Origin: Pseudobutyrivibrio xylanivorans DSM 14809
Lineage (GTDB): Bacteria > Bacillota > Clostridia > Lachnospirales > Lachnospiraceae
DNA length: 64,000 nucleotides
Direction of reading: 5' to 3'
Assembly (NCBI RefSeq): GCF_900141825.1
Contig: NZ_FQYQ01000003.1
Span: forward strand, 1-64,000
The translations under genes were made by a program, and so were the position numbers. Positions 19,140 to 49,096 of this stretch are shown here, in pieces. The notes beneath the pieces were generated by a model. The model had not been told where the DNA came from. It worked only from the letters and a program-made list of their open reading frames with translations, and made no database searches. Position 1 is the first letter of the stretch. The number at the start of each line of letters is the position of its first letter.

Positions 19140-19241
19140 AAAAGCCCCTTGTAGGCATCAAGCTCTTAGGTTTCTCAAGTGAAGCTTTCTATACTGAACT
19201 GAGAAACACTAATGCTTGTAGCCGTAACAAGGGGTGTTTTT
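19140..19241 (+). ncRNA. Structured ~95-nt intergenic element, copy A
   Basis: P1 pairs CCCCTTG (19145-19151) with CAAGGGG (19228-19234) and is flanked by A and T runs, so it can terminate transcription in both directions between the convergent aroF and cheW. P2 (GGC..CAAGC with GCTTG..GCC) and P3 (TTAGGTTTCTC with GAGAAACACTAA) stack inside. The 24-nt apical loop begins AAGTGAAGCTTTCTAT. It shares sequence and fold with copies at 37282 (reverse strand) and 48996. Whether it is more than a terminator is unknown. Confidence 0.75.
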
Positions 19242-19258
19242 GTAACTAGAGCTTTTCC

Positions 19259-19711
19259 TTATGCTGTAAGTCTACCTACTTCAAAGATGGAGATAAGCTC
19301 ATCATCTTTTCTTCCAACTCCACTAATGAAGCTGTCCTCTTTCTTGAGGAATGGTGAAGGCTCATTAATCTCGCTGTTTGCGATATTCATTACAGCCTTT
19401 ACATCATCAACGATAATTCCCATCATCTCTTCATTCTCAAGGTTAAGTACAATTATGCGGGTATCCTTATTAATATTTTCCTCTACATAATTCATTCTCT
19501 TACGAAGGCTCATTACAGGAACAACATGTCCACGTAAATTAATTACACCTTTCATATACTCTGGAGACTTTGGAATACTTGTTATTTCTGGGACCATGAT
19601 AATAGAGTTAATCACTGAAATATCAATACCGAAAGATTCCTTATCGATATGGAATACAATATACTGCTTATCTTCATTTTCAACTCTATTTAAAACTACT
19701 AAATCGTTCAT
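19259..19711 (-). CDS. cheW: CheW-type chemotaxis coupling protein
   Basis: 150 aa. CheW links chemoreceptors to the CheA kinase. The sequence has the two-subdomain beta fold, with IVFHIDKESFGIDISVINSII near the N-terminus and the signature MKGVINLRGHVVPVMSLRKRM in the middle. It lies 32 nt downstream of a chemoreceptor gene on the same strand, so both are probably expressed together. No cheA is in the window, so the partner kinase is elsewhere. Confidence 0.95.
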   Translation of the reverse strand: MNDLVVLNRVENEDKQYIVFHIDKESFGIDISVINSIIMVPEITSIPKSPEYMKGVINLRGHVVPVMSLRKRMNYVEENINKDTRIIVLNLENEEMMGIIVDDVKAVMNIANSEINEPSPFLKKEDSFISGVGRKDDELISIFEVGRLTA

Positions 19712-19743
19712 TATTATAGAAACCTCCTTTTAAACTACTTATA

Positions 19744-21738
19744 TTAAGCTATTTTGAAGAACTTCATCTCATCGTTTAACTGCTCAGCAATATTTCTAAG
19801 GTATGATGCAGACTCTGCAAGTGTTGAAACTGTTGCAGAAAGCTCCTCTACTGAAGCACCAGTTGTCTCTGAAGATGCTGCATTCTCTTCTGAAATAGCA
19901 GAAAGTGAAGACATAGCATTAGCTACTACTGTGTTTGAAGAAACACATGTATTAGCCTCGCCAGAAATCTTTGTAACACTCTGAACTGTCTCATCGATAT
20001 CCTGAAGCATACCCTGAACTGTATCAAGAGCCTCACCAAGAGCCTTCTGCTGCTCAATATTTCCATTCATTACATGTGTAGCAGCGCTAACTGCCTGTTC
20101 TGCCTCTGCCAAAAGCTCATCCATAAGAACTCTGATTTCCTGTGCAAGGCTTTCTGAATCATCAGCAAGCTTTCTAATCTCCTCAGCTACTACTGCGAAG
20201 CCCTTACCAGCATCACCAGCTCTGGCTGCCTCGATAGAAGCATTAAGTGAAAGAAGGTTTGTCTGAGCTGCGATACCAGAAATACCCTCTACACGCTCAT
20301 TGATGTTTGTTACAGCATTCTGAGTTGAAGAAATCTTTTCAGCAATCTCCTCAATCTTAATAGTCATATCACTGCTTGTATTCTGAAGAACTGCAAGTGA
20401 TGAGCTTGAAGCTTCTGATGCATTCTTCATTCTATCTGCAAGTGTTGTCATCTCATTTGTTGAGCCCTGTACGTTCTCAACAGCATTAGTAATCTGATTT
20501 GTGCTCTGTGCTGCAGACTGGATTTCCTCTGCCTGCTGTACTGCACCGCTTGCAATCTGCTGAACTGCGACTGCAACACTTTCTGCTGTAGCATTAATCT
20601 GATCTGCCATCATTGATAACTCTTCTGAAGACTCACCAACATTAGATGAAGAATCCATGATACTTGCAACAATACGTGAAAGCTTTTCAATAACTGTATT
20701 TGTATAATTTACAATGTGACCAAGTTCGTCATTACGCTTTGTAAACTTGTCAATAGTCTTAAATCTACCCTCTGCAAGAGCCTCAAGTGAATCATTTACT
20801 GCAAGGATCGGCTTTGTAAATCCAAGAGCAATAAAGAACGCAACAACACCACCAATGATAATAAGAATTAATCCAAGTACATTAGTTGTAAGCGCACTCA
20901 TACGAGCTGACATAAGAACCTGATTTACAGGAACATTCATACATACTGTATAACCAGTGATAGGCTCTTTAACGTATGATGTATACATTAATTCACCCAT
21001 AGCACTATTTTCAAAAGTACCAGACTCTTCATCAGAGCCTACGAAAGGTGCATCAGCAATAACGATTGGCTCATCCTCAGCTGATATCTCCATAGTAGAA
21101 GTAGCTGCAATAGTTCCGTTTTGATCAACAATAAAACATGATCCGCCTGCATCTACTAATACATCATGAAGCTGTGCTAAATCATAACTTCTATATAAAA
21201 CACCAACAACATTTTTTGTATTTGGCTGAAAAACAGGAACTGCAATGCAAATACTTCTAACACCTGTAGAAGAGCTTACCATTACTTCTGAAGCTGTTGT
21301 CTCACCCTTTACAGCACCCTGAAAATAATCTCTGGCAGATACATCAGAAAGAGTCTTGTCATCACTTCTAAGAACCATCTGTCCCTGAGTATTTACAAGA
21401 GTGATTGCATTACCGTCGTTAATCTTTGAATTGATGTACTGCATCTGATATTTAACATTCTCAGCCTTCTCTTGATTAAGAAGAAAATCTACTGTATCCT
21501 GAGAAGCAGCAATAGTATTCAACGCAGCTTCTCCTTGTGCGAAAATAGTGTTAAGTGCTGCCTGCAAATACCATGCAGACCACTCATTTTGCTCCTTAGC
21601 GCCATGTATAGCAGACTTGCTAGATGAATTATAATTAATTGATGTTGCTACTAAAAGTGGAATAGCTGCTAAAGCAATCATAGCAACAATAAGCTTTGTC
21701 TTTACACTGGAAAAAAGGGTCTTCTTAGTCTTTTTCAT
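19744..21738 (-). CDS. Methyl-accepting chemotaxis protein with dCache-type sensor
   Basis: 664 aa from the ATG at 21738, which has GGAGG 5 nt upstream. An earlier in-frame start lacks a site. A first membrane helix (~15-37) is followed by a ~250-residue extracellular region with dCache features ([41 protein letters not shown]). A second helix (~290-312), a HAMP domain and a long coiled-coil signalling domain follow, with the tip [20 protein letters not shown]. There is no C-terminal CheR-binding pentapeptide. The ligand is unknown; Cache sensors often bind amino acids. Confidence 0.93.
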
Positions 21739-21827
21739 ATAAACCTCCAAAAAATAAACCAAAAACCATTAACCTAAAACCAAAAAACAAAAATGCATTT
21801 GTGTTATTTTTGTGAACACATTTTGAG

Positions 21828-21836
21828 ATTATAACA
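21828..21836 (-). promoter_or_regulatory. Extended -10 promoter of the chemoreceptor-cheW unit
   Basis: On the minus strand TGTTATAAT is a full TGn plus TATAAT extended -10, 90 nt upstream of the start codon. No good -35 lies at the right distance. The 5' leader is A-rich without a clear fold. Confidence 0.5.
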
Positions 21837-21966
21837 GGTTTTATAACTATTTGTTGTTTTTATTTAAGTACAATATGGTAATATGTCACAAATTCTTATA
21901 GGCTTTATATTGTGATAATGCACAATAAATTTTCCAAATATTAAAAAAAACTCCTGTTTTCAAGGT

Positions 21967-22003
21967 AAAAAAATAGAGATCAAAGAACTATGTCTTCAAT
22001 CTC
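21967..22003 (-). terminator. Terminator of the Nudix gene
   Basis: An 11-bp stem with two wobble pairs (21976-21986 with 21993-22003) and a 6-nt loop is followed on the minus strand by TATTTTTTT. Confidence 0.7.
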
Positions 22004-22034
22004 CATAAACCACTAGTTGATACAGTGCAAATCA

Positions 22035-22577
22035 CTAGTTGCTCGCTTTTACTGCATAAGCCATAATTGCAGCAACTGTTTTTGCATCCTGAAGCTTTCC
22101 TGAATAACACATATCCAGCAAATCCCTTAAATCCCATGCTTCAATATCTATCTCTTCAGATTCATCCAGCTTTTGCTCTCCCACCTTTTCAAGTTCTGTA
22201 GCAAGATAAACATCAATCAGTTCATCACAAAAAGCTACTGTAGATTTAAGTGACAAAAGCTTTTCTAATTTACCGGCTCTGTAACCAGTCTCCTCTTCAA
22301 GCTCTCTTGCTGCACAAATAGCTGTATCTTCATTTACAGAATCTCTTTTACCTGCAGGAATCTCAAGTGTCTCTCTATCAAGTGCATTTCTAAACTGTCT
22401 TACCATAAGAATCTTTCCATCTGGCTTAACTGCAAGCACACAAGCTGCGCCCATTCTATGGCTTATGAAATCCCATTTTTCTGTATTTCCATTTGGAAGG
22501 AGCATGGTGTCCTCATAAAAATCAAGTATAGCACCGCTATGAACTAATTTACGATCTATTCGTTTTATCTGTTCCAT
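22035..22577 (-). CDS. nudF: Nudix hydrolase, probable ADP-ribose pyrophosphatase
   Basis: 180 aa from the ATG at 22577 with GGAGG 8 nt upstream. A longer frame would run through the terminator of rny, which rules it out. The Nudix box is complete (GKRDSVNEDTAICAARELEEETGY): Gx5Ex7REUxEExGU applies with a slightly altered first spacing. LMVRQFRNALDRETLEIPAG upstream is typical of ADP-ribose pyrophosphatases. It probably detoxifies or recycles ADP-ribose. It has its own terminator downstream. Confidence 0.88.
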   Translation of the reverse strand: MEQIKRIDRKLVHSGAILDFYEDTMLLPNGNTEKWDFISHRMGAACVLAVKPDGKILMVRQFRNALDRETLEIPAGKRDSVNEDTAICAARELEEETGYRAGKLEKLLSLKSTVAFCDELIDVYLATELEKVGEQKLDESEEIDIEAWDLRDLLDMCYSGKLQDAKTVAAIMAYAVKASN

Positions 22578-22593
22578 ATTATTTGCCTCCATT

Positions 22594-22619
22594 AAAAAAG
22601 CGGCTGGAAAACCAGCCGC
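22594..22619 (-). terminator. Terminator of rny
   Basis: GCGGCTGG (22600-22607 on the plus strand) pairs with CCAGCCGC (22612-22619) and is followed on the minus strand by six T. It lies 8 nt past the rny stop. Confidence 0.9.
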
Positions 22620-22626
22620 CCAGTAA

Positions 22627-24180
22627 TTACTTCGCGTAATCTGTAACTCGTGATTCACGAATTACGTTAACCTTAATCTGTCCTGGATACTCAAGCTGAT
22701 TCTCAATCTGCTTTGAAATATCCCTCGCCATGATGACCATATCGGCATCTGTAACCTGTTCAGGAACCACCATGATTCGAATCTCTCTACCTGCTTGAAT
22801 AGCAAAAGATTTTTCAACACCCTTAAAACTGTTAGAAATTTCTTCTAATTCTTTTAATCTGTTTGTGTATGTCTCCATAGCCTCTCTACGAGCACCTGGA
22901 CGAGCTGCGCTGATAGTATCAGCCGCCTGTACAATACAAGCTATAAGTGTTTCTGGCTCTACATCGCCATGATGTGCCTCTACAGCATTTACAACTGTCT
23001 GAGACTCTTTGTACTTACGACAAAGATCTGCGCCGAGCTGTACATGAGTACCCTCCTGCTCTCTATCTACTGCCTTTCCAATATCATGGAGCAAACCAGC
23101 ACGCTTAGCTACTCTAACATCAAGCCCAAGCTCTGCAGCAAGGAGTCCTGATAACTGAGCAACCTCGATAGAATGCTTAAGAACATTCTGACCGTAGCTA
23201 GTTCTGAATTTCATCTTTCCAAGTAATCTAAGAAGCTCTGGGTGAATACCCTGAACACCAACCTCGAGAGCGGCTGCATCGCCTTCCTCGCGAATCTGCT
23301 GTTCTACTTCCTTTTTAGCCTTTTCAACTGTCTCTTCAATTCTGGCTGGATGAATACGACCATCTACAATGAGCTTCTCCAATGCAATACGTGCAATCTC
23401 ACGTCTAACTGGATCGAAAGCAGATAAAATAACTGCCTCTGGAGTATCATCGATGATAAGCTCTACACCTGTCATTGTCTCAAGTGTACGGATATTTCTA
23501 CCCTCACGACCAATGATACGTCCCTTCATCTCATCATTAGGAAGCTGTACTACAGAAATAGTAGTCTCTGCAACGTGATCTGCTGAGCACTTCTGGATAG
23601 CGCTAACAACGATTTCACGTGCTTTCTTCTCAGCTTCATCCTTAGCCTGAGTAAGACTTTCCTTAATAAGCTTTGCTGCGTCTAATTTGACGTCTTCTTC
23701 TACAGATTTTAAAAGTTGTTCTTTTGCTTGTTCGGAGGTAAGTCCTGAGATTCTCTCTAGTTCCTGTACACGCTGCTGATTAAGCTTTGCAACCTCTTCT
23801 CGCTGCTTGTTAAGCTGCTGTTCCTGACGAGCGAATTCAGCTTCTCTCTTCTCTGCCGCTTCGAGCTTCTTCTCAAGGTTATCTTCCTTCTGAGAAATTC
23901 TATGCTCACTGCGCTGAATCTCTGCTCGGCGCTCACGGATTTCCTTGTCGAGATCATTCTTCTGTCTCATGGCATCTTCTTTTGCCTCGAGCATAGCTTC
24001 TCTCTTCTTGGCCTCCGCACTCTTTACAGCCTCATCGATAATCTCACGAGCCTTAGCCTCGGCAGAATCTACCTTATTCTTGCCCTGAGTCTCATGATGC
24101 TTATTGGCTACAAAAAGTGTAACAACAGCTGCGACAACTGCAACGATAAGGCAAATTACTATTACCGTTACAACGTTCAC
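22627..24180 (-). CDS. rny: Ribonuclease Y
   Basis: 517 aa, standard length. It is a membrane-anchored endoribonuclease that starts bulk mRNA decay in Firmicutes. An N-terminal membrane helix (3-24) leads into a long charged coiled coil (30-190). A KH domain follows ([17 protein letters not shown]), then an HD domain ([15 protein letters not shown], then EAHHGDV). The start is GTG, supported by AGGAGG 7 nt upstream. It is transcribed from its own promoter and ends at a strong terminator. Confidence 0.97.
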
Positions 24181-24263
24181 AGGAGCACCTCCTTATATAA
24201 TTTTCTAAATTTGAATATAAAATAAAAGCTAAAATGCTCTCATTTATAAACTTCAACACAATT

Positions 24264-24292
24264 AGTTTAACTTTATAATGGGCTCATGTCAA
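24264..24292 (-). promoter_or_regulatory. Sigma-A promoter of rny
   Basis: TTGACA, a 17-nt spacer and TAAACT are read on the minus strand in the recX-rny gap. Confidence 0.7.
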
Positions 24293-24375
24293 GAAAATGT
24301 ATACTATATATAGTAGTCTGGGCATGAATTAGGTTTACTTCAATTCTATTAAATAAAATTAAACTTAATTAAATC

Positions 24376-24969
24376 TCAACTTAATGATTTACCAATTGAT
24401 TCAGATGAAAATCCTCTGCCTGCCAAAAATCGATACATCTTTCCTCGGTCCTCATAAGTGGCATTTTCTTTGTCATATCCCTTCTTTTCAAGGAGTCGAT
24501 TTATCAATTCTTGCTCATCTGCAGTGTATTCTTTCTCTAAAACACGCTCTATAACATCAGATGAAATGCCCTTTCCCATAAGGTCCTGACGAATCCTGTT
24601 TCGGCTACGGGAATCCTGATAAAAGCGAACATAACTGGCCGCCATACGGGCATCATCCAAATATCCATAATCATTAATATAATCTATGGCGATGTCAATG
24701 ATATCCGAAGAATAGCCGCCTTCCTTTAGCTTATCTCTGAGATTCTTCTCGGAACGATCCTGCTTTTCCAAAAGATGAAGTGCACGCTTTTTACATCTGG
24801 GAATAAGAATCTCCCTGCAAATCTCCTCATAATCTGAAAGAGATAAATCTGCACCTTCTTCTATTCCATAGCTTTCGTATTCTTTCTTATATAGAACAAA
24901 ATCTGTCCCGTTATCGAGACAGATTTTTGCTCTTCCCTTGGATAATTTAACAAGAGATGTAATTTCCAT
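24376..24969 (-). CDS. recX: RecX regulatory protein
   Basis: 197 aa. RecX modulates RecA filaments. It shows the three-repeat RecX helical pattern: ALHLLEKQDRSEKNLRDKLKEGGYSSDIIDIAIDY, then DDARMAASYVRFYQDSRSRNRIRQDLMGKGI, then a third copy near the C-terminus. It follows recA with a 2-nt gap, so the two share the LexA-controlled transcript. Confidence 0.93.
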   Translation of the reverse strand: MEITSLVKLSKGRAKICLDNGTDFVLYKKEYESYGIEEGADLSLSDYEEICREILIPRCKKRALHLLEKQDRSEKNLRDKLKEGGYSSDIIDIAIDYINDYGYLDDARMAASYVRFYQDSRSRNRIRQDLMGKGISSDVIERVLEKEYTADEQELINRLLEKKGYDKENATYEDRGKMYRFLAGRGFSSESIGKSLS

Positions 24970-24971
24970 AA

Positions 24972-26027
24972 TTATTCAATAACCTCTGTAGGTATATCTT
25001 CTTTTTCGCCACCAACTAAGCCAACTTCGCTCTCTTCAGTCTCAGCATAGTAATCACGGATAGCATTTGCAATTTCCTCGCAAACTTCTTTATTCTGCTT
25101 AAGGTACATCTTAGCATTCTCACGGCCCTGGCCAATCTTCTCACCAAGATATGCGTACCATGCACCAGACTTCTGAATGATATCAAGATTAGTAGCTACA
25201 TCAAGGATGTCGCCCTCACGTGAGATACCCTCACCGAACATGATATCGAATTCTGCCTCACGGAATGGAGGTGCTACCTTATTCTTAACAATCTTAGCGC
25301 GTGTTCTGTTACCAATTACTTCACCGTTCTGCTTAAGAGCCTCGATACGGCGTACATCGATACGAACAGATGCATAGAACTTAAGAGCACGACCACCTGT
25401 AGTAGTCTCAGGATTTCCAAACATAACACCAACCTTCTCTCGAAGCTGGTTGATAAAGATAACTACGCAATTAGTCTTGGCAACAATACCTGTAAGCTTT
25501 CTCATAGCCTGTGACATAAGACGTGCATGAAGACCAACGTGGCTATCACCCATATCTCCATCGATTTCTGCCTTTGGTACAAGAGCTGCAACTGAATCCA
25601 CTACGATGATGTCCATAGCGCCTGAACGTACCATAGTCTCTGTGATTTCAAGTGCCTGCTCACCATTATCAGGCTGAGAAATGTATAATTCGTCAATATT
25701 AACACCGATAGCCTTTGCATATTTAGGATCAAGTGCGTGCTCAGCATCAATGAAACCAGCGATACCTCCTGCCTTCTGAACCTCTGCAACTGCGTGAAGT
25801 GCAAGTGTAGTCTTACCAGATGATTCTGGTCCATATATCTCAATGATACGGCCCTTAGGGAAACCGCCCTGACCAAGTGCGATATCAAGGCTGATGGAAC
25901 CTGTAGGAACTGTCTCAACCTGGACATTAGCCCCCTCGCCAAGCTTCATTACTGAACCCTTTCCATACTGTTTCTCAATCTGAGAAATTGCCGCATCTAA
26001 TGCTCTAAGCTTATCTTCATTTGCCAT
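24972..26027 (-). CDS. recA: RecA recombinase
   Basis: 351 aa, standard length. It does homologous strand exchange and activates LexA cleavage. Walker A GPESSGKT is at 66-73, Walker B is in [12 protein letters not shown], and loop L2 carries [12 protein letters not shown]. The C-terminus is acidic, as in the family. The transcript begins at a consensus promoter and passes a LexA box before the gene. recX follows. Confidence 0.99.
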
Positions 26028-26045
26028 TTTATAAAACCTCCGTTC

Positions 26046-26059
26046 GGAACAATTGTTCG
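26046..26059 (-). promoter_or_regulatory. LexA (SOS) box upstream of recA
   Basis: The minus strand reads CGAACAATTGTTCC, one base from the perfect Gram-positive LexA palindrome CGAAC-N4-GTTCG. It is just downstream of the -10 and 19 nt before the start codon, so bound repressor would block transcription. Confidence 0.9.
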
Positions 26060-26072
26060 TTCTTTAAATATA

Positions 26073-26101
26073 ATAATAGTGAAATGGGTATTAAATGTCA
26101 A
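26073..26101 (-). promoter_or_regulatory. Sigma-A promoter of recA-recX
   Basis: Consensus TTGACA, a 17-nt spacer and TATTAT on the minus strand, directly upstream of the LexA box. Confidence 0.85.
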
Positions 26102-26137
26102 CAATAAAATGGGATAAAAAATCGAATAAAACAAAAA

Positions 26138-26164
26138 CAAAAAAGACAGTGGCGAACGCCACTG
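26138..26164 (-). terminator. Terminator of prfC
   Basis: CAGTGGCG/CGCCACTG stem with a short loop, followed on the minus strand by TCTTTTTT. Confidence 0.9.
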
Positions 26165-26202
26165 CCCATTAATATACAATCCTAAATTTAATTAGTCAAG
26201 CA

Positions 26203-27792: not shown

Positions 27793-27817
27793 TTAAAACC
27801 TCCATGTATATAAACCG

Positions 27818-27850
27818 AAAAATAGCCTATACCGCCGTAACGATATAGGC
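27818..27850 (-). terminator. Terminator of rpsU
   Basis: GCCTATA (27825-27831) pairs with TATAGGC (27844-27850). On the minus strand the stem is followed by TATTTTT. Confidence 0.8.
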
Positions 27851-27877
27851 CATAAATTCAAAATTGTAAGCTGTAAA

Positions 27878-28051
27878 TTAGTATTTACGCTTTCTAGCAG
27901 CCTCAGACTTCTTCTTACGCTTTACTGAAGGCTTCTCATAGTGCTCACGCTTACGAATCTCCTGCTGGATACCAGCCTTAGCACAGTTTCTCTTAAATCT
28001 ACGAAGAGCGCTGTCTAATGACTCGTTTTCTTTAACTGTAACATATGACAT
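27878..28051 (-). CDS. rpsU: 30S ribosomal protein S21
   Basis: 57 aa, beginning [20 protein letters not shown] and ending in a basic Lys/Arg tail ([12 protein letters not shown]). It is a component of the small subunit near the mRNA anti-Shine-Dalgarno region. A GGAGG lies upstream of the ATG. It has its own strong promoter and terminator. Confidence 0.98.
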
Positions 28052-28115
28052 AGTCTAATCCTAACCTCCCTCCATTTGGGGACTTGTACTCATTAATCTA
28101 AAAGCACTAACAAGC

Positions 28116-28143
28116 ATTGTAACACAAAATCTATATTTGTCAA
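28116..28143 (-). promoter_or_regulatory. Sigma-A promoter of rpsU
   Basis: TTGACA, a 16-nt spacer and TACAAT with an upstream TG (extended -10), read on the minus strand between alaS and rpsU. Confidence 0.85.
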
Positions 28144-28153
28144 CATTTTTTAA

Positions 28154-30805: not shown

Positions 30806-30848
30806 AACAAAGTCCTCCAAAATATATTACTTGGAAGAAGACGAAGAA

Positions 30849-30983
30849 TTACTCCTCAATACCTTCTTTCCTATTTTTAGACTTGCGAAGCTTAACACCA
30901 ATGAAACCTCCGCAGATGCCTAGCGCAACCAGTATGATCATCTTAATCAGATAACTTGCAAAAGTAGATAAAAATGCAGACAT
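30849..30983 (-). CDS. Small single-pass membrane protein, 44 aa
   Basis: The frame begins MSAFLSTFASYLIKMIILVA and continues LGICGGFIGVKLRKSKNRKEGIEE. AGGAGG lies 7 nt before the ATG. One hydrophobic helix (about 10-30) with a Gly-rich end is followed by a basic, then acidic tail, predicting the C-terminus inside. It is 43 nt upstream of alaS on the same strand. I do not recognise a family. It is probably a real gene given the ribosome-binding site and amphipathic design. Confidence 0.7.
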   Translation of the reverse strand: MSAFLSTFASYLIKMIILVALGICGGFIGVKLRKSKNRKEGIEE

Positions 30984-31081
30984 GGCAATTCCTCCTAAAT
31001 CACAATTTTTAATACTAATTAAAGCTGTATTACATACTTAATCAAATTATAATCCAAAGTATTTTTAAATTCCACTGTATT

Positions 31082-31996: not shown

Positions 31997-32017
31997 TACT
32001 CTATCCCTTGTATAAAA

Positions 32018-32857: not shown

Positions 32858-32858
32858 T

Positions 32859-34942: not shown

Positions 34943-34991
34943 TGCGACAGCTGTGGATTATTTAATAGTTTTTTTATAAATTGTATAAGCA

Positions 34992-35918: not shown

Positions 35919-35993
35919 AATAAAAATACCTTTTCTATAATATGTAATAATGATAGCATATAAACTATCGATAAAAAAGAAAGGTGGAACACC

Positions 35994-37271: not shown

Positions 37272-37281
37272 AAGTCAAAAT

Positions 37282-37386
37282 AAAAAAAGCAACTTGTTAC
37301 GCTCTCAATCCTTAGAATTACTCCGTTCAACATAGAAAGTTTCGCTTGAGTAACTCTAAGAGATTGATAGCTACAAGTTGCTTTTA
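37282..37386 (-). ncRNA. Structured ~95-nt intergenic element, copy B
   Basis: Read on the minus strand, P1 pairs GCAACTTGT with ACAAGTTGC, followed by TTTTTTT. P2 is CTATCAATC with GATTGAGAG. P3 is a 13-bp stem (CTTAGAGTTACTC with GAGTAATTCTAAG). The apical loop starts AAGCGAAACTTTCTAT. Alignment to copy A keeps TTGTAG, ATCAA, CTCTTAG, CTCAAG, CTTTCTAT, TGAAC and GTAACAAG, while the stems change with compensation. It lies between convergent genes and ends directly at the galA stop. Confidence 0.78.
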
Positions 37387-39723: not shown

Positions 39724-39738
39724 TTTTATTCTCCTATC

Positions 39739-41154: not shown

Positions 41155-41173
41155 TATAATTACCCTTCCCTTA

Positions 41174-42640
41174 TTACTTATTCTTAAGTCCCATAGCAAG
41201 CTCAACTACCTTGTAAGCTCCATCGTAGAGACCGATTTTCTTATTTACCTTAATACTCTCACACATATCTGATAGAAGACGATCATCCTTCATAAACATA
41301 TCAATCATCTGAATAGTATGTGGGATATCTCTACACTCTAATGTACCATCTCCCATTTCAGCTGAATGAATTGCGCCCCACATTTCATGCTTTCCTACTC
41401 TCTTAATGAAAAGCTTAGGAATTGGGTAGAATGCAAGCTCAGATGGCTTTGTAACAAGAACATCACAGCTTCTCATAAGAAGATTTGTGCAGTAAACAGC
41501 CTCAAAAATATTTTCATGATAGAATCCGTGAATACCTGTGACATCACCTGTAATAGCATCCTCAGCAAACTTTGTTGTGGCATCAAATTCATTGAAATGC
41601 TCAGTAGCTACAGCCTTCATCTCTGGAATCTCAGCCATAAGATCATCCCAAACATTCTTGTAGTCGCCAACATTTACATAAAGCATTGCCTTGTTCTGCT
41701 TAATTGCAGGAAGAAGGTACTTGATGATTGCTGCAAAAATCTCCTTCTGCGCTCCAGCGCCACCAATTGTAAGAAGGAAACGCATAGCCTTTCCATCATG
41801 TTTTCTAGCCATTCTTGCATCACAATCAGATTCAATATTGCTAACAAGCTCATGATCAATATAGTGACCTGTGTAAACCAAGTCATCATTTGGCATAGGG
41901 CTGCAAACAGCATTATTTGGTGCCATTCCATTACAGATACGATATCCCATGTACGCATTTTTGCACTGGATTGTGTGAACACTGCCCTCTGCAAAATGAA
42001 GTGCCATTGGCCAATTGTCTGGAATAGCATTAACAACGTTCTTCATGCCTGCATGGATAGCTGCCTGTGCTGGCCATACATGGGTGCCGATAACAGGAAT
42101 CTCCTTAGGCACATTCCTAAATACTGGTGCCATAAGCTCTGCATTCTTCTGATCTGAAGAATTATATGAAAGCTTTCTGAACCACTCATAGTTAGCTGGC
42201 TCCCAGATAAATTTATTAAAGAGCTTATTCTTAGACATACGTGAGCCCTTTGAATACAAATCATTCTGATGGCTGATAACCTTAGTACATGTAGTCTGTG
42301 GATATCCGTTTAAATCCATCCAGTATGGAGTATAACCAAGTGCTTTTGCTGCTGAGGCCATAGCCATTGAAATACGGTAATGACCGAAGCCCATTCTGAT
42401 ATTTCCAACAATAATCCCCTTCTCTGTGTCAAACTGTTCCTTTGACTGTCCATCCTTCAAGAGAACATCATAAACCCCAAGAGAATCTCCAATATGTGAA
42501 TTCTTCTCAAGGACAATGTTGTAATCAACATTTGAATCGTCGCCAAATCTCTTGGCATACTTCGCTTTTGAATTACAAGCCTTGTTGTAATCTTTATCAG
42601 CGATAACATTTCCAAAAATAACCTTACTCTTGTCTTGCAT
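41174..42640 (-). CDS. Unknown protein with glycosyltransferase-B (GT28-like) features
   Basis: 488 aa. I do not recognise a named, characterised family. The start GIIVGNIRMGFGHYRISMAMASAAKALGY resembles the Gly-rich N-terminal loop of MGDG synthase/MurG-like GT-B enzymes. MRFLLTIGGAGAQKEIF looks like the linker strand of the second Rossmann half. LVTKPSELAFYPIPKLFI resembles the donor-binding region. It has no signal peptide and no membrane helix. It is embedded in a galactoside operon 25 nt after a GH2 gene. A transferase, phosphorylase or carbohydrate-binding enzyme for the imported sugar is possible. Confidence 0.6.
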   Translation of the reverse strand: MQDKSKVIFGNVIADKDYNKACNSKAKYAKRFGDDSNVDYNIVLEKNSHIGDSLGVYDVLLKDGQSKEQFDTEKGIIVGNIRMGFGHYRISMAMASAAKALGYTPYWMDLNGYPQTTCTKVISHQNDLYSKGSRMSKNKLFNKFIWEPANYEWFRKLSYNSSDQKNAELMAPVFRNVPKEIPVIGTHVWPAQAAIHAGMKNVVNAIPDNWPMALHFAEGSVHTIQCKNAYMGYRICNGMAPNNAVCSPMPNDDLVYTGHYIDHELVSNIESDCDARMARKHDGKAMRFLLTIGGAGAQKEIFAAIIKYLLPAIKQNKAMLYVNVGDYKNVWDDLMAEIPEMKAVATEHFNEFDATTKFAEDAITGDVTGIHGFYHENIFEAVYCTNLLMRSCDVLVTKPSELAFYPIPKLFIKRVGKHEMWGAIHSAEMGDGTLECRDIPHTIQMIDMFMKDDRLLSDMCESIKVNKKIGLYDGAYKVVELAMGLKNK

Positions 42641-42665
42641 TATTTATACCTCTTACCCCTTTTAA

Positions 42666-45125
42666 TTATTTTGTTAAACACTCCACTGAAAGGCCAATTG
42701 TAACTGGCTCTAAGCCGTCACATTTGATAGTAAGCTTACCATCTCCATCCTCCCCAATGGATTTTATATATACTCCCGTGCAGCCTCCCATCGGAGCTAC
42801 TGCAGTAGGTCCTATTATTTCAAAAGGACCTTCTATTTCAAAGCTCAATGGCTGAGCAAAATAGAACAATTGATTATCATTCTGATCTACAATTCTTATG
42901 CGAATATTAGCAACATCATAGGTATGAAGCTCTGTTAAAAGTGTATGGCTAGCCTTTGCTTCTATATGAGCCTCTGTAACTGCGGCCTTAGTAACAGTTT
43001 TAACAACCTGCCCATCTTTTATAGCTTCGAACTTGTACTCGCGGGATTCTCCACCCCAGTCACCAATGAACTTGTTGTAAATTGGAACTGCCTTCTTAGG
43101 ACTAACACCATGGAAGGCAACAAGTCTGAATGCGTTCCACGCAAGTGTTGGTGTAGGTCTGAATCCCTTTAAAGTAACTTCATTAAGAATCTTTTTGATG
43201 AGCTTTGCCTGCCCCTTTGTGAATTCGCCGTCCTGCTCAATGGCATCACCTACGAAATCATCAATCAGAATCGGACCATGCTTAATGTTCTCAAATTTGC
43301 TATCCTCTGGAACATACTCTTTAATCAGAACATCATTTTTATACATTCTTACAGAATCAGCATTGCTGATAATATAAGATTTTCCACGATTACATGCTGG
43401 ATGCTCTCCAATATCAAAGCTTGTAGTAACATCCAAAACTGTCTCTGTGTCAGAAAAGGCTGCATAAACTGATGCTGCAAGCTTAGGATTTCTGAACATA
43501 TCCATAACACCGTGATAACAGATTCTATCACCTGAGCCAAAATCCTTGTGGGTGTTATAATCAAACATACACCAGCCAAAGGCACCTGCAATATCAGCTT
43601 CACCAGCAACTGCATCTACCACTGTAGCATGTCTTATAGCGTGCTCCTGTCTATGTTCCTCCCAGTCAAATGGCTTTGTTGGGAACATGTGGCCATTGTA
43701 CTCACTAATTAAGTATGGCTTTTCATCATTAGATGTAATATCGCTCTTCTTAGCACAACCCTTATTTTTTCCTGAGAACGAGAAATCATTATATGTGTAA
43801 ACATCTTCAAGAAGATTACTCTTAGCTATACATCTTACGCCACCTGTAGGTCGTGTAGGATCAAGCTCGTGTGCAACGGCATTCGTTCTTTCATAAAACT
43901 CATCATTATCTGGAGACTCATTAATACGAACGCCCCAAAGTATGATAGAAGGATGATTCCTATACTGACGAACCATATCCTTTGTATTCTCTACTGCAAT
44001 ATCCTGCCACTCCTTACCTCCAATGTGCTGCCAGCCAGGAATCTCTGTAAATACGAGAAGACCTAATCTATCACACTCATCGATAAAGTAATGTGACTGT
44101 GGATAATGGGATGTTCTTACTGCATTTAAAGCCAGCTCTTCTTTAAGAATCTTTGCATCTAATCTCTGCATAGATTCAGGCATTGCATATCCAACATAAG
44201 GATAAGACTGATGTCTGTTTAAACCTCTGAGCTTCACCTTTCTACCGTTGAGATAGTAACCATTCTTTCTGAACTCTGAGCTTCTGAAACCAATAGTTTC
44301 TTTAACCTCATCTACTACCTTGTCATCAAGAATAAGCTGAGTCTTAAGGCTGTAGAGATATGGGCTTTCAATATCCCAAAGCTTTACAGTAGATGGCGCG
44401 CTTGTAAGACTAAGGTAGTAACCGCCATCTTTCTCCTCCAAACCTCCGACAGGCTGTGAGATTAATAAATCTTCGTCCAAATACTGTCTTATGAATAATC
44501 GTTCTTCGCTTGCAAGCTTGTAAACATTCTTTCTGAAGAAGCATTCAGTCTTGATAATTCCCTGAACATTCATCATCTTTATCTGCTTAGGTGATCTCTT
44601 ATTTGTAGAGACCCTTTCTAATAAAGAAGGCTGAACAATAATATCTTTAAAATGAACCTTTTCTCTAACTTCGAAATATACATCTCTGTATATTCCACCA
44701 TAAGTCATGTAATCAATTACGTACCCAAATGGAGGCTGATCGAGTGTCTCTCTAGAATCAACCTTAACAGTGATAAGATTCTCTTCACCGAGCTTTAACA
44801 CCTTTGTAATATCAACAGTAAAAGCTGTATAACCACAATCGTGATGCTTTAAGTGCTTTCCATTCACATATACATCGCAGGAATGTCCAACACCCTCAAA
44901 TACAAGAGATACATACTGATTTTCCCACTGAGTAGGTGCAAAAATACTCTTCTGATATCCACTTACCATCTGGTAAATACTCTCATCAAAATATGAAAGA
45001 GGAGTCACTTTTACTGTATGTGGAATATTGACTAATGTGCTGTTTTCCATTGGCTCATTAATCATCTCCTCAGAGAAGTTTTCGTTAAATCTCCATTTTC
45101 TATCTAAATAAATTCTTTGTGCCAT
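42666..45125 (-). CDS. GH2 glycoside hydrolase, probable beta-galactosidase
   Basis: 819 aa. It has an N-terminal sugar-binding jelly roll (NIPHTVKVTPLSYFDESIYQMVSGYQK), an Ig-like domain, and a TIM barrel with acid/base Glu in IILWGVRINES and nucleophile Glu in PYLISEYNGH. It carries an extra C-terminal region of ~250 residues with beta structure. There is no signal peptide. Its start directly abuts the tetR stop, with no gap. Specificity (beta-galactosidase, glucuronidase or mannosidase) cannot be set with certainty; the GH36 neighbour favours galactosides. Confidence 0.88.
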   Translation of the reverse strand: MAQRIYLDRKWRFNENFSEEMINEPMENSTLVNIPHTVKVTPLSYFDESIYQMVSGYQKSIFAPTQWENQYVSLVFEGVGHSCDVYVNGKHLKHHDCGYTAFTVDITKVLKLGEENLITVKVDSRETLDQPPFGYVIDYMTYGGIYRDVYFEVREKVHFKDIIVQPSLLERVSTNKRSPKQIKMMNVQGIIKTECFFRKNVYKLASEERLFIRQYLDEDLLISQPVGGLEEKDGGYYLSLTSAPSTVKLWDIESPYLYSLKTQLILDDKVVDEVKETIGFRSSEFRKNGYYLNGRKVKLRGLNRHQSYPYVGYAMPESMQRLDAKILKEELALNAVRTSHYPQSHYFIDECDRLGLLVFTEIPGWQHIGGKEWQDIAVENTKDMVRQYRNHPSIILWGVRINESPDNDEFYERTNAVAHELDPTRPTGGVRCIAKSNLLEDVYTYNDFSFSGKNKGCAKKSDITSNDEKPYLISEYNGHMFPTKPFDWEEHRQEHAIRHATVVDAVAGEADIAGAFGWCMFDYNTHKDFGSGDRICYHGVMDMFRNPKLAASVYAAFSDTETVLDVTTSFDIGEHPACNRGKSYIISNADSVRMYKNDVLIKEYVPEDSKFENIKHGPILIDDFVGDAIEQDGEFTKGQAKLIKKILNEVTLKGFRPTPTLAWNAFRLVAFHGVSPKKAVPIYNKFIGDWGGESREYKFEAIKDGQVVKTVTKAAVTEAHIEAKASHTLLTELHTYDVANIRIRIVDQNDNQLFYFAQPLSFEIEGPFEIIGPTAVAPMGGCTGVYIKSIGEDGDGKLTIKCDGLEPVTIGLSVECLTK

Positions 45126-45686
45126 TTACTTTTCCTTTACAAGAATCCCATCAATAAGTACATCAACAACTTCCTTCAAAGCAGTTGGGTAATCCATATT
45201 GCTTCGCTTAAGGAAATCACCCATTAACAAACGTTCTACGCTGGAACCATAAATAAGCTTAAAGATTTCAAGATTGATCTTTCTAATCTTTCCTTCTTCC
45301 ATCCCCTTATTAAGGAGGTCGAAAGTCTTATCCCAACCGCTCTCTAGACGATTATTGAGCTTCTCATGAGCCATTGGATATTTTTCAGCCATTTGCTGCA
45401 TAGCAGCATAATCAAATCCATAGCTATTTTCCGGAAGCACCACAAGAATACCTCTAAGCTTTTCTATAGTGGAAAGCTTATCATTCTTGTATACCCTGTC
45501 TTCTTCTTCCTTAATAATATTGAAGGCGTAATCTACCATCTCACACATTAATTCATTCTTATCATTAAATACTGTGTAGATAGTTTTCTTACTCATCTTC
45601 ATTTCAGATGCAAGGTCGTCCATTGTGAACTTAGGTCCTTTTTTTCTAAATACGTTTAGTGCACCCTCTAAAATTCTTTCATTCAT
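45126..45686 (-). CDS. TetR-family transcriptional regulator
   Basis: 186 aa. The N-terminal helix-turn-helix is ILEGALNVFRKKGPKFTMDDLASEMKMSKKTIYTVF (residues 4-39), a textbook TetR DNA-binding domain. The C-terminal half is the ligand/dimer domain. It is the first gene of a leftward operon with GH2, GT-B-like, GPH and GH36 genes, so it probably controls them in response to the imported sugar. A TATTAT and an imperfect palindrome near 45706-45728 in the upstream gap could be its promoter and operator. Confidence 0.93.
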   Translation of the reverse strand: MNERILEGALNVFRKKGPKFTMDDLASEMKMSKKTIYTVFNDKNELMCEMVDYAFNIIKEEEDRVYKNDKLSTIEKLRGILVVLPENSYGFDYAAMQQMAEKYPMAHEKLNNRLESGWDKTFDLLNKGMEEGKIRKINLEIFKLIYGSSVERLLMGDFLKRSNMDYPTALKEVVDVLIDGILVKEK

Positions 45687-45814
45687 ATGTTTTTACTCCC
45701 AAAAACTATAATTTGTATAACGAGTTTCCTTACACTAATAATAACACATCCATGGAAACTAACTCAACAGAAATAGGTTTGTCCATTTTTCACAATTTAT
45801 TCGCAATGTTTTTG

Positions 45815-45843
45815 TTGACAAAGTACAATCTCGGGTTTATTAT
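45815..45843 (+). promoter_or_regulatory. Strong sigma-A promoter for the 43-aa protein gene
   Basis: Consensus TTGACA, a 17-nt spacer and TATTAT lie 41 nt before the ATG. It is one of the best promoter matches in the window. Confidence 0.85.
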
Positions 45844-45884
45844 GTCCATGTTAAAAAAATAAGAGAATTTAGGAGGAAATAAGA

Positions 45885-46016
45885 ATGTTCGAAGAAGTAT
45901 CATTCCAGATGTACACAATTTATTCAGATTACGAGAAATATTGCAAAAAGCAGCAGAACGCAGGCATGGAGCCGGTTTCATTCTTCAAGTATGCATTTGG
46001 CCAGTACGAAGACTAA
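45885..46016 (+). CDS. Small 43-aa protein of unknown function
   Basis: The frame begins MFEEVSFQMYTIYSDYEKYC and ends FFKYAFGQYED, rich in Tyr, Phe and Glu. AGGAGG lies 8 nt before the ATG. It has a consensus promoter upstream and an intrinsic terminator 12 nt after the stop, so it is a complete monocistronic gene. There is no membrane segment. I do not recognise it. The high-quality signals suggest strong expression. It is flanked by the rod-like structured region at 46187-46561. Confidence 0.82.
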   Translation: MFEEVSFQMYTIYSDYEKYCKKQQNAGMEPVSFFKYAFGQYED

Positions 46017-46028
46017 TATCAAATATAT

Positions 46029-46060
46029 GGCGGTCACCTATTTGGGTGGCCGCTTTTTTT
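46029..46060 (+). terminator. Terminator of the 43-aa protein gene
   Basis: GCGGTCACC (46030-46038) pairs with GGTGGCCGC (46045-46053), followed by seven T. Confidence 0.93.
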
Positions 46061-46186
46061 GTATCCTCCCAAGCTACACTCTTTTTTCTCTCCTGCACAG
46101 GCTCAGGGGACCCGCCCTCCCCGCCACCAACTAAAGCATTTGAGCAGAATTATAGATTTTCTTAATACTGCTGGTTGAGCTTTTCT
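46061..46186. other. Intergenic stretch without a recognised gene
   Basis: It contains a pyrimidine-rich tract, then a GC-rich patch (about 46100-46126) unlike the AT-rich surroundings, then AT-rich DNA running into the rod structure. No open frame with a ribosome-binding site was seen on either strand. Confidence 0.5.
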
Positions 46187-46561
46187 GGATGTCTTTTCAC
46201 TGGTTTTGCACTTCGAAGAGAATGTTGTGCTTTTCACAGACATGTTTTTATCTATAAATATTCTCCAAAGCTATTTGTTGAGGTTGCTTTCATATTCCGT
46301 TTGCAAAGTAGAACATAAAAAGAGATATTTGGTTGTAAGGGCACCGTGGCACATTCAACGTCCTGTTTCAAGTGACCACTGCTGCCGCCGTCCTAGCGGC
46401 AGCTGCCCTTACAATTCAAATATCTCTTTTGTTCTACTAAGCTCACTCCAAATATCCAGCAACCTTCAACAAAAACTTTGGAGAATAATTCCTAAAGTAT
46501 ATTGCATGTCTGTGTTAAGCACACATTCTTGATAGAAGTGCAAAGAATTGAAAAGACATCC
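46187..46561. ncRNA. Large (~375-nt) rod-like self-complementary element, putative ncRNA or MITE
   Basis: Nested complementary blocks run from both ends to the centre: 46187-46199 with 46549-46561 (13 bp perfect); 46205-46214 with 46535-46544 (10 bp); 46235-46244 with 46505-46514 (10 bp); ATTCTCCAAAG with CTTTGGAGAAT (11 bp); TTGTTGAGGTTGCT with its bulged complement; AGTAGAAC with GTTCTACT; AAAGAGATATTTG with CAAATATCTCTTT (13 bp); TTGTAAGGGCA with TGCCCTTACAA (11 bp). The centre holds a GCTGCCGC/GCGGCAGC hairpin and a second arm. It has no coding frame and is terminator-bounded on both sides. The strand is not decidable. Confidence 0.7.
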
Positions 46562-46567
46562 AACAAT

Positions 46568-46601
46568 AAAAAAGCGGCCACTGGAGTTTCCAGAGACCGC
46601 C
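46568..46601 (-). terminator. Terminator of nfnAB
   Basis: On the minus strand GCGG..CTGGA pairs across a short loop with TCCAG..CCGC and is followed by six T. It lies 18 nt past the nfnB stop. Confidence 0.85.
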
Positions 46602-46618
46602 ATATAGTTGATATTAGT

Positions 46619-48007
46619 CTAGTTCTTAGACTTGAAGTACTCGTCGATTGCTGCGGCTGCTGTTTTACCTGCGCCCATAGCGAGGATTACGGTAGCTGCG
46701 CCTGTTACGGCATCACCACCTGCGAATACAGCATCCTTAGTTGTTGCGCCCTGCTCTGTAGCAATGAGGCAACCCTTCTTATTTGTGTCAAGACCAGCTG
46801 TTGTACTAGAGATAAGTGGGTTTGGAGATGTACCAAGTGACATGATGACTGTGTCACACTCGATTTCGTACTCCGAACCTGGAATCTCTACTGGACGACG
46901 ACGACCTGAAGCATCTGGCTCGCCAAGCTCCATCTTGATAACCTTACATCCACGAACTGAGCCTTCCTCATTAACAAGGATTTCAACAGGATTCTGGAGA
47001 AGATCAAAGATAACGCCCTCTTCTTTAGCGTGATGTACTTCTTCTGCTCTTGCAGGAAGCTCTGCCTCAGAACGACGGTATACTACGTGAACCTCTGCTC
47101 CAAGACGAAGTGCTGTACGAGCAGCATCCATAGCTACGTTACCACCACCAACTACTACAACCTTCTTGCCGCGAGCGATTGGTGTATCGTATCCTTCCTT
47201 GAAAGCCTTCATAAGGTTGTTACGTGTAAGGTACTCGTTAGCTGAGAATACTCCGTTAGCCTGCTCACCAGGGATGTGCATGAACATAGGAAGACCAGCA
47301 CCTGATCCGATGAATACAGCCTCGAAGCCTTCGTTTTCCATAAGCTCATCGATTGTGATTGAACGACCGATAATTACATTCTTTTCAAACTTAACGCCGA
47401 GAGCCTTTACGTTCTCAACTTCAGCCTTAACTACCTTGTCCTTTGGAAGACGGAACTCAGGAATACCATAAACAAGTACTCCTCCCATCTCGTGAAGAGC
47501 TTCAAATACAGTAACATCATAACCAAGCTTAGCTAAGTCTCCTGCTGCTGTAAGACCTGAAGGGCCTGAACCAATAACTGCTACCTTGTGACCATTTGGA
47601 GTAGATGTATTCTTTGGCTTGATTCCATTTTCGCGAGCCCAGTCAGCAACGAAACGTTCAAGCTTTCCGATAGCTACTGCCTCTCCCTTGATACCACGGA
47701 TACACTTACCTTCACACTGTGATTCCTGTGGGCAAACACGACCGCAAACAGCTGGAAGAGCTGATGACTCAGAAATGATTTCATATGCTCTCTCAAAATT
47801 GCGTTCCTTAACCTGCTCGATAAATGCAGGGATATTAATAGAAACTGGACAGCCGCCTACACACATAGGCTTCTTACAGTTAAGGCAACGTCCTGCCTCT
47901 TCTACTGCCTCTTCCTCTGTATATCCAAGACAAACCTCTTCGAAGTTTGTAGCACGAACCTTTGGGTCCTGCTCTGAAATAGGTACTCTAACTAAAACGT
48001 CTCCCAT
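46619..48007 (-). CDS. nfnB: NfnB, large subunit of ferredoxin-dependent transhydrogenase (GltD-like)
   Basis: 462 aa. It is often annotated as glutamate synthase small subunit. The N-terminus binds two [4Fe-4S] clusters (C41, C44, C49, C53 and C88, C92, C98, C102). It has FAD (VIGSGPSGLTAAGDLAKLG) and NADPH (VVVGGGNVAMDAART) Rossmann motifs. Its ATG overlaps the stop of the preceding [2Fe-2S]/FAD gene. That pairing is the NfnAB (SudAB) arrangement, which couples NADH and reduced ferredoxin to NADP+ reduction by electron bifurcation. No large GltB subunit is nearby, which argues against glutamate synthase. Confidence 0.88.
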   Translation of the reverse strand: MGDVLVRVPISEQDPKVRATNFEEVCLGYTEEEAVEEAGRCLNCKKPMCVGGCPVSINIPAFIEQVKERNFERAYEIISESSALPAVCGRVCPQESQCEGKCIRGIKGEAVAIGKLERFVADWARENGIKPKNTSTPNGHKVAVIGSGPSGLTAAGDLAKLGYDVTVFEALHEMGGVLVYGIPEFRLPKDKVVKAEVENVKALGVKFEKNVIIGRSITIDELMENEGFEAVFIGSGAGLPMFMHIPGEQANGVFSANEYLTRNNLMKAFKEGYDTPIARGKKVVVVGGGNVAMDAARTALRLGAEVHVVYRRSEAELPARAEEVHHAKEEGVIFDLLQNPVEILVNEEGSVRGCKVIKMELGEPDASGRRRPVEIPGSEYEIECDTVIMSLGTSPNPLISSTTAGLDTNKKGCLIATEQGATTKDAVFAGGDAVTGAATVILAMGAGKTAAAAIDEYFKSKN

Positions 48008-48897
48008 TACTCGTCACCTCCACAATTTCCACATCCGCCGTGGTGTGTATCGCCTTCCTGCTGCTTAAGAAGTGCTCTGCCTTCTTCTGTCTTGTACTGT
48101 TTTGCTCTAGCCATAGCCTGATCAAAATCTACAAGATGACCATCAAACTCTGGTCCATCTACGCATGCAAACTTAACCTCATCACCAACTACAAGACGGC
48201 AAGCTCCACACATACCTGTTCCATCAACCATGATTGGGTTCATAGAAACAACTGTAGGAATGCCAAGCTCCTTTGTAAGGAGACATACAAATTTCATCAT
48301 AATCATAGGACCAATTGCTACGCAGTGGTCGTATTTCTTACCAGAATCTACAAGTGCCTGAAGCTGTTGGCAACCATTTCCATGGAAACCGTAGCTACCA
48401 TCATCTGTTGCAAGATAAAGCTCATCAGCTACTTCACGCATCTCATCCTCATAGAAAAGGATATCCTTAGAACGTGCACCAATGATAACTGTAGTCTTTA
48501 CGCCATGCTCCTTAAGCCACTTAACCTGTGGATATACTGGAGCTGTACCAACACCACCTGCGATGAATACAATGCTCTTCTTTTTTGTCTCTTCTAAATC
48601 TTCTTCAAGACAAAGCTCTGATGGCTGTCCAAGTGGACCTACAAAATCGGCAAAAGCATCGCCTTCATTAAGAAGTGCCATACGCTCTGTAGAAGCGCCA
48701 ACAGTCTGGAAAACAATTGTAATTGTTCCCTCTGCTCTATCATAGTCGCAAATTGTAAGAGGAATACGCTCACCCTCCTCATCAATCTTTACGATAATAA
48801 ACTGACCTGGTAAACAACCGGCAGCAACTCTTGGTGCCTTAACCACCATAAGGAAAATCTTATCAGAAAGCTTTTCCTTTTTTACGATTGGATACAT
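48007..48897 (-). CDS. nfnA: NfnA, FAD/[2Fe-2S] subunit of ferredoxin-dependent transhydrogenase
   Basis: 296 aa from the ATG at 48897 (AAGGAG 8 nt upstream). A TTG two codons earlier is too close to the site. It is a ferredoxin-NADP reductase-like protein of the sulfide/dihydroorotate dehydrogenase-like group. FAD binding is seen in PLTICDY, and NAD(P) binding in IVFIAGGVGTAPVYPQ. A C-terminal [2Fe-2S] site has cysteines in MCGACRLVVG and FACVDGPEFDGH. It is coupled to nfnB by a TAATG overlap. The product is a cytoplasmic redox-balancing complex typical of fermenting anaerobes. Confidence 0.9.
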   Translation of the reverse strand: MYPIVKKEKLSDKIFLMVVKAPRVAAGCLPGQFIIVKIDEEGERIPLTICDYDRAEGTITIVFQTVGASTERMALLNEGDAFADFVGPLGQPSELCLEEDLEETKKKSIVFIAGGVGTAPVYPQVKWLKEHGVKTTVIIGARSKDILFYEDEMREVADELYLATDDGSYGFHGNGCQQLQALVDSGKKYDHCVAIGPMIMMKFVCLLTKELGIPTVVSMNPIMVDGTGMCGACRLVVGDEVKFACVDGPEFDGHLVDFDQAMARAKQYKTEEGRALLKQQEGDTHHGGCGNCGGDE

Positions 48898-48932
48898 AAA
48901 CAAGACTCCTTCCCTTTTAAACGTATTAACGT

Positions 48933-48961
48933 ATTATATCCGTTCACTGTAGTATTGTAAA
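48933..48961 (-). promoter_or_regulatory. Sigma-A promoter of nfnAB
   Basis: TTTACA, a 17-nt spacer and TATAAT on the minus strand, 36 nt upstream of the nfnA ATG. Confidence 0.82.
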
Positions 48962-48995
48962 GTGTTAAAGTGAACAAAATTGTATTTTTGGCATA

Positions 48996-49096
48996 AATTA
49001 AGCCTCTAGTAGCTATCCAGCTCTTGGTGTTACTCAAGGAGCCAATCTCGCGGCGGAGTAATACCAAGGCTTGAGAGTGTGACTAGAGGCGTAAAT
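48996..49096 (+). ncRNA. Structured ~95-nt intergenic element, copy C
   Basis: P1 pairs GCCTCTAGT (49002-49010) with ACTAGAGGC (49082-49090). P3 is a 13-bp stem (CTTGGTGTTACTC with GAGTAATACCAAG). It aligns to copy B over TAGCTATC, CTCTT, GTTACTCAAG and GAGTAAT with compensated stem changes, but the apical loop differs (GGAGCC... rather than CTTTCTAT). The consensus reads on the plus strand, opposite to both flanking genes. Neither side has a T-run, so unlike A and B it is not a good terminator. Confidence 0.7.

Follow-up and report, generated by a model that had tools for sequence, protein, structure and literature searches.

A REP-like interspersed hairpin repeat of Pseudobutyrivibrio with a probably exchangeable core on stems that stay with terminator-type sites

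ERIC elements are about 127 bp long and BOX elements are modular through repeated box units; we know of no split between a fixed stem and an exchangeable core in ERIC. Stem-loop sequence families have been described in 40 bacterial genomes and, according to the available part of that survey, some are thought to be terminators (PMC2267715). The superfamily of GTAG-tagged repetitive extragenic palindromes (REPs) lies mostly downstream of genes in co-directional or convergent arrangement, and REPtrons may be missing through deletion, as stated in the accessible portion of the source (PMC3733652). In Escherichia coli, TnpA_REP reads GTAG together with an irregular hairpin, on the available text of a further study (PMC8266576). 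Small inversions occur at palindromes in chloroplast trnH-psbA spacers, as the accessible part of that report describes (PMC2903610). Here we analyze a 64,000-nucleotide stretch of Pseudobutyrivibrio xylanivorans DSM 14809 (contig NZ_FQYQ01000003.1, positions 1 to 64,000; hereafter the window), which contains three copies, E1, E2 and E3, of a hairpin element made of a base stem (P1) and a core. With a probability of roughly 0.6, the element is a genus-specific, high-copy, REP-like interspersed hairpin repeat of Pseudobutyrivibrio, in which an exchangeable core of about 75 nt sits on a stem that is site-bound at terminator-type sites.

Two covariance models were used, R1 built from the three window copies and R2 from 109 copies; G000 is the genome of the window, other G numbers are further genomes, and L numbers are loci. 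The original prediction of three structured copies in the window was confirmed by R1 matches at each (Table 1), by folding, and by the 18-base pattern TAGSNATCNANCTCTTRG, whose three mismatch-free window matches are E1, E2 and E3 (the remaining four rows carry 3 mismatches, the chance level). Each copy folds into one long imperfect rod, with z scores of -4.6 to -8.8 against dinucleotide shuffles on all six strands and 0 of 200 shuffles as good in each case. Their alignment has 54 invariant columns and a mean column identity of 78%. The P1 stems are as had been described; as a correction of detail, the first copy reads TTTCTCAAG, not TTACTCAAG. Those three copies are real, but the predicted count was too low for the genome: R1 returned 47 rows in G000, 4 of them reverse-strand reads of listed copies, which leaves 43 places. 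R2 returned 44 rows, including one 47-base partial, and R1 gave 140 rows in the relative G003.

The strong conservation of pairing identifies one structured family, as had been predicted from compensatory changes in the three copies. Among 109 distinct copies, 89.9% of pair cells are paired as against 71.1% in shuffles, and pairing falls to 28-41% when partners are slid by 1-3 columns. Two-sided change occurs in 33 of 36 pairs, with 709 double-change cells compared to 224 in shuffled alignments; at column pair 15/98, all four Watson-Crick pairs are found, with one exception in 109. The core extends for about 75 nt from GTA(G/A) to GTAAC and comprises an asymmetric loop followed by a long imperfect hairpin, and 70-75 nt separate the stem arms in most measured core-bearing copies. 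It begins with GTA (columns 16-18) in 107 of 109 copies, and column 19 is G in 90 of 109. Seven columns are invariant and 17 nearly invariant; nearly constant, too, are the GT/AC pairs closing the core, an A facing GTA and a number of pairs in the helix that follows. By eye, the tip often resembles tandem G.A pairs. Within 28 hand-chosen same-site pairs, 179 base pairs had changed in place (77 two-sided with pairing kept, 40 one-sided with pairing kept, and 62 broken, some possibly through misalignment).

The further claim that the P1 differences represent covariation within one RNA class is unsupported as stated. This emerges from same-genome copies with core identity of at least 0.90, for which P1 was read at the five nearest pairs. 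There are 27 such pairs, in 9 clusters only, comprising 10 of 903 in G000 and 17 of 2628 in G003. Their near-P1 identity is 0.31 in G000 and 0.44 in G003, compared to 0.44 and 0.43 for all other pairs. In an alignment-free reading, identity is 0.30 at the bases that directly adjoin the core on each side and remains near background for 40 bases. Stem identity beside near-identical cores is at background, so that such cores do not, in general, bring their stems along. Near-P1 cells nevertheless remain paired in 529 of 580 instances, in 116 aligned matches. Near-identical cores are seen on unrelated stems within one genome. To judge from these sequence comparisons, the P1 differences are mostly not ordinary covariation; in short-stem operonic copies they could be.

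Between species, terminator-type sites also keep their stems under cores that change, flip or disappear. We compared 42 same-orientation orthologous-site pairs, hand-picked from a site comparison and the E2 series, several of which share a site. In the 24 pairs with core identity below 0.85, mean P1 identity is 0.67, as against 0.39 in other pairs, a value reached by 0 of 10000 random draws. The terminator-type subset (n=14) gave 0.64 versus 0.35, or 0.72 with one pair per site (n=9), again with 0 of 10000 draws; the mixed-class subset (n=3) gave 0.80 versus 0.37. For example, L036/L119 have a core identity of 0.58 and a P1 identity of 1.00, and L047/L101 have 0.65 and 0.90. Copies in opposite orientation at the same site, with altered stems or cores, were found for L033 versus L078/L098, L053/L076, L054/L173 and L043/L190. 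Candidate empty sites (L045/L157, L113/L108, L143/L138) have flanks 82-98% identical and, by eye, no clear target-site duplication; the L045 site in other species holds remnants, reversed copies and double copies, likewise by eye.

The window sites themselves show extensive turnover. Of the genus members examined, 3 of 29 have a full core at the E1 site, 7 of 27 at the E2 site and 4 of 27 at the E3 site, and such poor retention is unlike a fixed role at fixed sites. At E3, the full core occurs in G000, G003, G010 and G001, and in 7 of the 27 genomes the stem GCCTCTAGT forms a short hairpin (exact in G289, G006, G019 and G016; with G-U changes in G008, G023 and G022). Two more (G015, G018) have a truncated core on a near-identical stem, and the remaining 14 have other sequence. 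The E3 core has one orientation in G000 and G003 and is inverted in G010. Because P1 is identical and the cores are alike across orientations (identity 0.82-0.88), this is most simply explained by at least one flip in place. At E1, the full core occurs in G000, G009 and G003, and a stem without core in G010 (the G009 stem) and G018 (the G003 stem); neither of these is the E1 stem of the window itself. At E2, G015 has the G006 stem without core. At individual putative terminator sites, the stem persists even where the core has changed, is inverted or truncated, or is missing. The E1 site in L331, L333, L338 and L339 holds, by eye, another hairpin-like stretch (GGCTTCCCCCTCTGGGG ... TGTCACCGCAGGTGACTGATGAGGG). 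Orthologous cores at L049/L162, L063/L169, L105/L130 and L103/L167 are 100% identical while their flanks are 5-17% different, the opposite of the turnover at other sites.

Placement relative to genes was determined for 55 copies in the window's 240-kb contig and a 560-kb stretch of G003, with genes called by a simple open reading frame script; one of these copies has lost its loop by deletion and two carry long inserts. Co-directional genes flank 40 of them (35 sense, 5 antisense), convergent genes 13 and divergent genes 2, such that 53 of 55 lie between unidirectional or convergent genes. The binomial chance of the sense bias (35/40) is about 7e-7. Within the 560 kb of G003, 10 of 42 convergent gaps bear a copy. 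Long-stem copies carry A-runs and T-runs and can be read as putative terminators; many copies between co-directional genes lack a T-run. Operonic copies are often short-stemmed with flanks TGAG/CGGA or ATAG/CGAG (strict patterns in 8/55 and 4/55), and many stop a few bases ahead of the likely start codon. The downstream genes look functionally unrelated, as judged by eye from N-termini.

The family appears restricted to one genus. R1 matched 23 of 41 genomes; every one of these belongs to the 25 from the same genus, and the 16 genomes of other families of the order gave 0 matches. Across 250 genomes representing 249 genera of the family, Pseudobutyrivibrio alone matched (1/249 genera), although weak matches may be missed because 15 candidates were scored per genome. 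With R2, G007 has 1 copy, G004 has 6 and G021 has none, and 5 genomes from other genera likewise gave no match. Among the matches listed, named records with pattern matches are Pseudobutyrivibrio, including FP929036.1, which is filed as Butyrivibrio fibrisolvens 16/4. Exact-pattern matches listed under unrelated titles (L102, L110, L114, L125, L132, L133, L135, L136, L153, L158, L164, L174 and L178) gave no R1 match; L187, L201 and L207 lay outside the R1 scan. Rfam 15 returned only tRNA and TwoAYGGAY over the window at gathering score, away from the elements, and a search of 15 of the 43 element loci at E up to 3 yielded three matches, none overlapping an element. The searches of genome, family and Rfam suggested with the original prediction therefore gave 43 copies, a genus-only range and no Rfam family, rather than three weak genome matches or a known RNA family. 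Carriage by phages or plasmids was rejected, as blastn of E2 against both found nothing and none of 5 viral contigs matching two short patterns matches R2 at E up to 0.1. In the open-access literature on Pseudobutyrivibrio, Butyrivibrio and Lachnospiraceae, no paper on such a repeat in the genus was found among the matches listed, subscription journals and preprints being outside this scope.

We propose a two-part element that would work like the intergenic palindromes of the REP and bacterial interspersed mosaic element (BIME) type. At terminator-type sites, P1 would be an A/T-flanked intrinsic terminator that stays with its locus, often between convergent genes; in operons, it would be a short stem ahead of the next gene, where no site-binding is assigned. 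The stem would thus perform the locus-level work of termination. The core would be a passenger, namely a mobile module or one spread by gene conversion, or would have an RNA function under weak site-level selection. Exchange could come about through gene conversion or through an enzyme that works on folded strands, and the pairing of the core would be kept because a folded single strand, of DNA or RNA, is recognized. More tentatively, the core may be a mobile hairpin module living in the loops of other hairpins, which enters, leaves, flips and exchanges inside existing terminators, with the host stem joining the element's structure and shielding the host; we consider this a possibility worth entertaining, short of probable.

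Several observations weigh against the two-part proposal. The same-site pairs were chosen by hand, several from one site, and stems are fairly alike in 2 of the 9 paralog clusters (0.70 and 0.80). Stem and core are both lost in L050/L161, L145/L161 and L097/L179 (P1 identity 0.00, 0.10 and 0.40), and L045 looks insertion-like relative to L157, which has no pre-existing stem. The stem-only hairpins retain the GT/AC tip, and some retain parts of the core; they may thus have arisen by deletion and not be targets. At E3, the tree is ambiguous as to the direction of gain and loss. The motifs outside P1 (TGAG/CGGA, ATAG/CGAG) are unexplained by a purely local stem, and the PF01797 search of G000 found no transposase. 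In the short-stem operonic subset (n=7), P1 identity is 0.66 versus 0.65, with 4835 of 10000 draws as high. This class split makes the stem a property of the site in terminator-type copies only, and the idea that stems are site-bound in all copies was dropped, given that the operonic class shows no P1 excess over background. Because their P1 shows no same-site excess, operonic short-stem copies may follow other rules than terminator-type copies. At L067/L095 and L146/L168, for example, operonic short stems at orthologous sites are no more alike than those of any two operonic copies.

Four alternative readings were weighed. A cis-regulatory or processing RNA, with a protein or RNase site in 3' untranslated regions and between operon genes, would be under site-level selection with P1 free to covary. 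Such a role would fit the strong pairing conservation, the sense orientation of 35 of 40 copies in co-directional gaps, the several orthologous cores that are 100% identical despite 5-17% flank difference, the operonic copies that often stop just ahead of a likely start codon, and the operonic P1 stems that are not site-bound. It fits poorly with the low retention at E1, E2 and E3 (3/29, 7/27 and 4/27), with inversion and replacement at the same site, and with neighboring genes that look unrelated in function, by eye only; we regard it as a doubtful, though serious, contender. Unlikely, in our assessment, is a GTAG-tagged hairpin spread by an IS200-like REP-associated tyrosine transposase (RAYT) acting on folded single-stranded DNA, with the stems incidental. 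The copied unit does start at GTA(G/A), and the REP placement and GTAG recognition cited above speak in its favor, but at about 75 nt the core exceeds the 20-40 of REPs, no Y1_Tnp (PF01797) match occurs in 19 of 29 genus genomes including G000, and R2 matches at none of the 12 PF01797 loci scanned, of 18. A Y1 transposase as current driver was accordingly rejected (0 matches in G000, 10/29 genus genomes with one, 12/18 loci scanned without R2). Three equal-scoring PF01797 matches lie in G003 (C1:587618, 2118809, 2219133), the relative richest in elements seen, and none in G000.

The terminal repeats of a miniature inverted-repeat transposable element (MITE) are normally its most conserved part. 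A MITE relic, i.e. an ordinary inverted-repeat transposon with P1 as its terminal inverted repeats, would account for the high copy number, the hairpin shape and the presence or absence between species; however, P1 varies more between copies than any other part and is left behind when the core is copied, identity being at background just outside the core, and we judge this origin improbable. Convergence of simple terminators on similar hairpins would explain why long-stem copies look like terminators, but is hardly credible and was rejected: the copies share a core, with 7 columns invariant and 17 nearly so, which refutes this reading, and many copies in co-directional gaps have no T-run.

Within the window, E1 is flanked by convergent genes for DAHP synthase and CheW, and E2 lies right behind the stop codon of a melibiase (GH36) gene, with a CLC channel gene facing it. 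E3 is set between two minus-strand genes, antisense to both, with 3 nt to the 3' end of the opposite-strand CobW-domain gene. E1 and E2 have the layout of an intrinsic terminator, a GC-rich stem followed by a T-run, and E3 has no good T-run; this agrees with the predicted bidirectional terminator-like nature of two copies between convergent genes and not of the third. A terminator scanner found none near E2, as it accepts loops of 3-8 only. The stretch that follows E1 possibly resembles an arm of an older stem; at the orthologous site in L117, by eye, ACTAGAGGTTTTCC is the P1 3' arm and tail. A TwoAYGGAY RNA (RF01731, 51.1 bits, above gathering score) lies at 46292-46452 (-), about 2.5 kb from E3.

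Table 1. Copies of the element, and an adjoining stretch, in the window
Feature	Position	Strand	Description
E1	19139..19244	+	R1 match; stem GCCCCTTGT/ACAAGGGGT; A-run 5', T-run 3'
ACTAGAGCTTTTCC just after E1	19245..19258	+	Candidate remnant, 3' arm of older stem
E2	37280..37386	-	R1 match; stem GCAACTTGT/ACAAGTTGC, lengthened by A/T pairs, then T-run
E3	48994..49099	+	R1 match; stem GCCTCTAGT/ACTAGAGGC

Composite copies occur elsewhere. At L128 (~2421-2525), a whole element is nested in the stem of an older one (outer GTCGGTAGTTCACAAA ... TTTGTGAACGTAACCGAC), and on the minus strand of L191 (~3660-3850) at least two tandem 5' halves stand ahead of a whole copy, which suggests either slippage or several partial insertions. 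In G003, nested and half copies also occur near 1.566 Mb. In addition, another interspersed repeat, rich in GC (GCGCGAG ... GGGCCC ... GCTCCCGCAGG-like, by eye), is present in some of the same intergenic sites, at L105 6812-6881, L130 4239-4308, L202 ~7091-7383, L348 (the E2 site of G003) and L379 (the E3 site of G014); at L202, it is joined to the hairpin element.

If an exchangeable core on site-bound stems is the correct description, the repeat would spread without breaking its host signal, the terminator stem staying in place while the loop carries a passenger. It would also serve as a warning: when a single helix of a repeat family shows compensatory change, the cause may be stems bound to their sites and not conservation of an RNA class. 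The family, in which the same sites hold copies at different stages, offers a tractable system for REP-like movement where a RAYT gene is not found.

Among described systems, REPs, BIMEs and REPINs are the nearest, on the available parts of the literature: they too are high-copy imperfect palindromes 3' of genes in co-directional or convergent arrangement, with compensatory stem changes and GTA(G) at one end. Unlike these, the present element has a core of about 75 nt on a separate stem, undergoes inversion and core replacement at a site, has no RAYT-type gene match in G000, and is confined in these searches to one genus of Lachnospiraceae. Compared feature by feature with GTAG-tagged REPs, it shares the end tag GTA(G), here partly paired unlike that of REPs, and the placement relative to genes (53/55); its unit is 70-75 nt between the arms rather than 20-40 bp, and no RAYT (Y1) association was seen. 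With no PF01797 match in G000 and a unit about twice as long, it is a REP-like family that departs from REPs in two defining features. ERIC and the pneumococcal BOX and RUP elements are similar as interspersed intergenic palindromes that are often transcribed, a comparison made by description. The stem-loop families are likewise repeated, mostly intergenic and structured; the two clostridia named in the available part of that survey are Clostridium species, and Lachnospir- does not appear in that text (PMC2267715). Intrinsic (Rho-independent) terminators share with the long-stem copies a GC-rich stem, an A-run and a T-run at gene ends, whereas the loop here consists of a conserved hairpin domain that recurs at tens of sites. 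As in the trnH-psbA spacers, to the extent described in the accessible part of that report, a stretch appears to flip in place at a palindrome; here, the flipped stretch would be the core of a dispersed repeat inside a terminator stem.

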